Shown here piece by piece: positions 19,878-20,957 of a stretch of 36,476 nucleotides of DNA. A model generated the notes under the pieces. The model did no database searches. It was not told where the DNA came from and saw nothing but the letters and a program-made list of their open reading frames with translations. Source of the stretch: Bacillota bacterium (GTDB taxonomy: Bacteria; Bacillota; Clostridia; Saccharofermentanales; UBA5734); NCBI GenBank assembly GCA_029548445.1, contig JAKPNJ010000306.1, positions 1-36,476 on the forward strand, written 5' to 3'. Each line of letters opens with the position of its first letter. Positions within the stretch are counted from its first letter, which is position 1. A program made the position numbers and the translations under genes.

Positions 19878-20291
19878 ATGCTTGTGCGCAACTGTGCCGG
19901 CGGCATCGTCTTCCATGGGGACCGGGTCCTCGTGCTGAAGAACGACAAGGGGGAATGGGTCTTCCCGAAGGGCGTCATCCGGAGCGGCGACTATCCGGAC
20001 GACGTGGCCATCGCCCGGGTCCAGCTGGAGGCGGGAGTCAAGGCCCACATCATCTCCTCCGCCGGCCGGACGAACTACGAATTCTTCTCCGTTTCCCGCT
20101 AACGGCCTGTCTGCAACAAGATCGTGTGGTACATCATGGTGGCGGACAGCGACACCATGACACCGAATCCCGACCAGAACTTCCACGAAGGCGCGTTCAT
20201 GCCGGTGGAGGAAGCCATGGAGAAAGTGACCTACAGCCAGGACAAGTCCCTCCTGATGCTCTCGTACCAGCGGTACAAGGAGCTGTCCTGA
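19878..20291 (+). pseudogene. NUDIX hydrolase interrupted by an in-frame TAA
   Basis: The frame opens at 19878 with MLVRNCAGGIVFHGDRVLVL and carries the block GEWVFPKGVIRSGDYPDD. The NUDIX box is degenerate, as I recall for this Clostridial family. A TAA at 20100-20102 ends it after 74 codons (SVSR). The same frame then continues without interruption for 62 sense codons to TGA at 20289-20291, encoding RPVCNKIVWYIMVADSD and on to SQDKSLLMLSYQRYKELS, which are the expected remaining parts of the family. The stop therefore replaces one residue, probably a glutamine or lysine, and one base change would explain it. It may be a true pseudogene, a sequencing error or a read-through case. TAA is used as a normal stop by serS, so recoding of TAA across the genome is unlikely. 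Confidence 0.8.
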
Positions 20292-20294
20292 CCC

Positions 20295-20957
20295 ATGGGA
20301 GACCCCGTCCGGATCCTGTCCGGCATCGGACGGGTCCGGATCACCGACCGACGGTCGATCTTCATCGCGGAAGCGGCACCGGTCGGGGACGAGGATGCGG
20401 CCCTGCGGCACCTGCGTGGCATCCGGGAGGAATTCCCGGATGCCACGCATCATGTGTACGCCTATCGGACCCGGCTGGACGGCGAAAGCCGGACCCAGCG
20501 CCACTCCGATGACGGCGAACCCCAGGGGACGGCGGGACTGCCCGTCCTGGACGTGCTTCTCCGGAACCGCCTCGATCAGTCCCTGGTCGTGGTGGTGCGA
20601 TACTTCGGCGGTATCCGCCTGGGACCCGGGGGCCTGGTGCGGGCCTATGGGGCCGCCGCAACCCAGGCTGTGGACATGGCGGGCATCGCGGAACTGGTGC
20701 CGGTGCGGACCTATCGCGTCACGATCTCCTACGGGGCGGCAGGTCTCCTGCTCCGGCGGCTCGAACAGGCCGGGTACCCGGTCGGGACGGTCCGCTACGG
20801 TCTCGATGTGGACGCGACGGCTGCCTGCCTCCCGGACGAGGCCGAGGACTTCCTGTCGCAGGTCCGGGACGTCGCGTCGGGTGCGGCCCTGGTCGAGCGC
20901 CTGGAGGATCGGCTGCTGCCCGTCGGACCCGGAGGCCGTCCCTCCTTCGGGACCTGA
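20295..20957 (+). CDS. IMPACT/YigZ family protein
   Basis: The 220-residue protein has the N-terminal UPF0029/IMPACT domain. The signature HSDDGEPQGTAGLPVLDVL is followed by VVVVRYFGGIRLGPGGLVRA. A C-terminal DUF1949-like domain of about 70 residues completes the usual YigZ layout. Members are small cytoplasmic proteins linked to translation control, with no proven enzyme activity. The ATG lies three bases after the stop of the NUDIX frame and has no separate ribosome site. Its translation could depend on ribosomes finishing that frame, so the internal TAA upstream might lower its expression. Confidence 0.9.
   Translation: MGDPVRILSGIGRVRITDRRSIFIAEAAPVGDEDAALRHLRGIREEFPDATHHVYAYRTRLDGESRTQRHSDDGEPQGTAGLPVLDVLLRNRLDQSLVVVVRYFGGIRLGPGGLVRAYGAAATQAVDMAGIAELVPVRTYRVTISYGAAGLLLRRLEQAGYPVGTVRYGLDVDATAACLPDEAEDFLSQVRDVASGAALVERLEDRLLPVGPGGRPSFGT

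Follow-up and report, generated by a model that had tools for sequence, protein, structure and literature searches.

An in-frame TAA at codon 75 interrupts a conserved Nudix-fold gene in a clostridial metagenome-assembled genome

In the window, the whole 36,476-nucleotide stretch of DNA analysed here, a single in-frame TAA interrupts a Nudix-fold gene that belongs to the core of its family, and we consider this codon to be probably a genuine and very recent nonsense substitution, either fixed or present as one allele of a strain mixture. The frame opens on the + strand with ATG at 19878 and spans 137 codons (19878‒20291). Its translation begins MLVRNCAGGIVF... and ends with SVSR at residue 74, followed by the TAA at codon 75 (20100‒20102) and then, in the same frame, by 62 sense codons and a TGA (20289‒20291).

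Read through, the frame scores 41.7 bits against Pfam NUDIX (PF00293; cut-off 21.1 bits), the first half alone scores 24.7 bits, and the second half alone has no Pfam NUDIX match. We assign a Nudix domain to the read-through frame and not to the 74-residue stump. The stump part of the gene (first 74 codons, 19878‒20099, +) was delineated by its translation, the Pfam NUDIX match, and the modeled strands and helix before the stop; the TAA was located by translation, the alignment of relatives, and the model; and the conserved 62 sense codons with their TGA (20103‒20291, +) were defined by translation, alignment, and coding statistics. Relatives align straight through codon 75 without a gap at the stop. 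These coordinates, Pfam scores, and gapless alignment bear out the preliminary description, according to which a TAA splits an otherwise intact NUDIX gene and 62 sense codons of family sequence follow in the same frame; this downstream frame is ~68‒78% identical to the nearest relatives, a similarity beyond chance. A frameshift was rejected since the frame is the same on both sides of the TAA and the alignment is gapless there. Since the codon is TAA rather than UGA or UAG, it is neither a selenocysteine nor a pyrrolysine site, and the relatives mostly have Gln, Arg, or Lys at this position. On the opposite strand, a 1031-codon open frame (19761‒22856, −) lies antisense to the Nudix-fold gene, yigZ, and yebC, and one relative has an antisense frame to which a part of it aligns; it probably arises as a mirror frame of GC-rich codons. 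Elsewhere in the window, one open frame (11833‒13518, +) combines a GNAT acetyltransferase domain with an aminoglycoside N-acetyltransferase domain of the AAC(3) type.

The AlphaFold model of the read-through frame, built with 47 sequences, has a pLDDT of 96. In this model, the strands 56‒71 and 76‒89 are joined by a predicted β-turn, and the stop sits in this turn. The stump lacks strand 76‒89, strand 102‒109, and the helices 110‒116 and 120‒136 of the model. Without these two Nudix-sheet strands and the helices at the C terminus, the 74-residue stump should not form the Nudix fold. A restart after the stop was also considered: no sequence resembling a ribosome site was seen by eye before GTG 20124 or ATG 20136, and the product of a restart at ATG 20136 would be without most of strand 76‒89.

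The gene was found in 21 of 23 family genomes and in all 16 of those of good quality (completeness of 90% or more, contamination of 5% or less). When related genomes were compared, as had been suggested beforehand, none of the other 20 matching family genomes and none of the 93 distinct relatives (the family-genome loci together with 80 loci from a contig search, mostly clostridial MAGs) had an internal stop. The stop is thus absent from the orthologues, as expected for a nonsense pseudogene. At position 75, the 93 relatives have Gln in 61 cases, Arg in 13, Lys in 12, Met in 2, Gly in 2, and His, Glu, and Asn in 1 each. This genome shares the gene order DUF4015 (−), Nudix, yigZ, yebC with the two closest genomes, which identifies the gene as the orthologue rather than a stray paralogue. 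The assembly contains no second copy, and its six further NUDIX matches do not match the Nudix-fold protein. The genomes compared include none other of the same genus, and the contig scan may omit very near records.

The sequence after the stop has the properties of an intact gene. Its codon-position GC (0.52/0.32/0.90; GC2 0.32, GC3 0.90) is the pattern of a coding frame, and dN/dS is ~0.25‒0.33 against the two closest relatives. When the parts before and after the stop are compared in their leave-one-out fit to the family profile, the gene lies well inside the range of 53 intact relatives. Past the stop, its identity to the outgroup L006 amounts to 0.78, compared with 0.69 for each of two intact sister genes, and dN against L006 is 0.17, compared with 0.22 and 0.24. 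Codon-position GC, dN/dS, and profile fit after the stop thus equal those of intact relatives, in agreement with the earlier statement that there is no other decay. Relaxed constraint after the lesion, which would mark a nonsense pseudogene, was not detected, since there is no excess divergence past the stop; any loss is therefore too recent to have left such marks.

The origin of the TAA is less straightforward than first proposed. The preliminary description explained it by a single substitution from CAA or AAA. Among the relatives, codon 75 is CAG in 42, CAA in 19, AAA in 9, AGA in 7, AGG in 6, and other codons, none of them a stop, in the rest. A one-step change from CAA is possible, since CAA is found in 19 of the 93 relatives, yet it would not be the default expectation: CAA accounts for only 8 of 136 Gln codons (6%) in the confident genes of the window, and CAG, from which TAA is two steps away, is the codon in both of the closest relatives (79% and 76% identical, GC 67‒70%). 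The need for a rare CAA in a one-step origin is an argument against a real nonsense change.

If the TAA is real, ribosomes would end at codon 75 and release the 74-residue stump, and the full Nudix-fold protein would be lost or made only at a trace level. The neighboring gene downstream, yigZ (UPF0029/IMPACT family; 20295‒20957, +), is conserved and starts with ATG at 20295, just after the TGA of the Nudix frame. It had been described as having no ribosome site of its own, which does not hold: AAGGAG, a candidate ribosome-binding site (20277‒20282, +), lies inside the Nudix frame, in its final codons, with a 12-nt spacer to the yigZ ATG, and 53 of 107 relatives have a similar motif at the gene end. 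Since AAGGAG precedes the ATG, initiation of yigZ is possible. We consider that yigZ could still be initiated from this candidate site, while ribosomes would no longer run through from the Nudix-fold gene and the output of yigZ may fall.

Reassignment or suppression of UAA throughout the organism is extremely improbable; all that speaks for it is the open frame obtained when the TAA is read as sense. No UUA anticodon is present among the 40 tRNAs found in the genome, and there is no internal TAA in ~166 other family matches, so neither a UAA-reading tRNA nor another in-frame TAA accompanies the one at codon 75. The gene serS, immediately upstream, has TAA as its terminal codon at the point where its relative also terminates, supporting the earlier view that TAA is a normal stop there and arguing against reassignment. 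One class-I release factor gene was found, and its PVT motif is taken by us to be of the RF1 type; RF1 reads UAA, and its presence also argues against reassignment. The RF1-type gene lies on another contig (C210:17010‒17342), and an RF2 query over the genome finds just this RF1, while most family genomes have two class-I release factors. Since genes in the window end most often in TGA, the missing RF2 is likely a gap in the MAG.

Readthrough of the stop, as a leaky control of expression that yields full-length protein at a low level, is improbable. In its favor, the constraint continues past the stop, and the stop is located at a variable turn residue where nearly any inserted amino acid would be tolerated. 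However, a conserved readthrough stop would be kept at the same place in relatives, and none of the 93 has a stop at codon 75; the tRNAs found offer no UUA anticodon, and UAA is generally the tightest stop in bacteria. In-frame stops with continued purifying selection have been reported in bacteria, mostly as short-lived ones (PMC7918605). A related reading, in which the TAA is real and tolerated as a species-specific turn-down of a core gene, with trace readthrough of a probably non-catalytic protein, is also quite improbable, slightly more so than leaky control.

Nonsense codons and one-base errors are both ordinary events, and a single-base consensus error or a chimaeric strain consensus in the metagenome assembly, with the gene of the organism itself intact, is a serious though less probable alternative. 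Each of the 16 good-quality family genomes carries the gene, all relatives have it intact, no decay follows the stop, and many internal-stop pseudogenes in assemblies are reported to be errors (PMC11017572). The perfect preservation of a core gene, together with the spurious stops known from drafts, favors an error, and it counts against a real nonsense change that an undecayed core gene is also what a one-base consensus error looks like. The window is contig C284 of a fragmented MAG (3.03 Mb, 359 contigs, 97% complete, 3.2% contamination). On the other hand, no internal stop was found in 48 ABC_tran, 111 BPD_transp_1, 6 other NUDIX, and 1 RF-1 matches of this genome; with none in ~165 other family matches, the assembly is not riddled with errors. 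Of the ~17 window regions conserved in relatives, only the Nudix-fold gene has a mid-gene stop, and its absence from the ~16 others also points to a low error rate. Three other window alignments contain a stop which, judged against the list of open reading frames, is the gene's own stop or lies upstream of the start. A one-base error would, moreover, need the same starting codon that is rare here. Since the rate of other internal stops is low, we favor the real nonsense substitution and infer that the base itself is correct.

On its own, the codon-75 stop amounts to a single nonsense codon in a draft genome and is of little general interest. It does illustrate cleanly how an isolated stop in a core gene can be judged from relatives, tRNAs, release factor, downstream constraint, and the base rate of the assembly. 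The family itself may matter more than the stop. The Nudix-fold protein is conserved in many Clostridia, where its gene is mostly linked to yigZ. The Nudix box is GX5EX7REUXEEXGU, and non-enzymatic Nudix proteins are a recognized class (PMC5389931). The Nudix-fold family does not carry this box: in the degenerate box at residues 32‒54, within the stump part, 88 of 93 relatives have Arg at position 47 in place of the canonical catalytic Glu of 'RE', position 50 (the first Glu of 'EE') varies, and position 51 (the last Glu) is Glu in 91. Since the canonical box is lost family-wide, the family may not be a hydrolase, and the replacement of the catalytic Glu by Arg suggests a function in binding or regulation instead of hydrolysis. 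A conserved pseudo-Nudix protein adjoining yigZ in Clostridia would be a reasonable subject of its own.

Among known systems, the protein resembles the Nudix Ap4A/Ap6A hydrolases aq_158 (PDB 3i7u) and Ndx1 (PDB 1vc8) in its fold (TM-score of the model to 3i7u, 0.90) and in its best sequence matches, whereas the catalytic box is missing throughout the clostridial family, which keeps the last Glu alone. The stop resembles the spurious stops of draft assemblies (PMC11017572) in being the only flaw in a core gene of a fragmented draft MAG, but this genome does not have a generally raised error rate. It also resembles recent single-substitution pseudogenes and strain nonsense alleles (PMC7918605). 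The case differs from them in coming from a single genome, which gives no measure of fixation or persistence, and shares with them that a conserved gene carries one in-frame stop, that purifying selection is visible on both sides of it, and that other species have no stop at that site.
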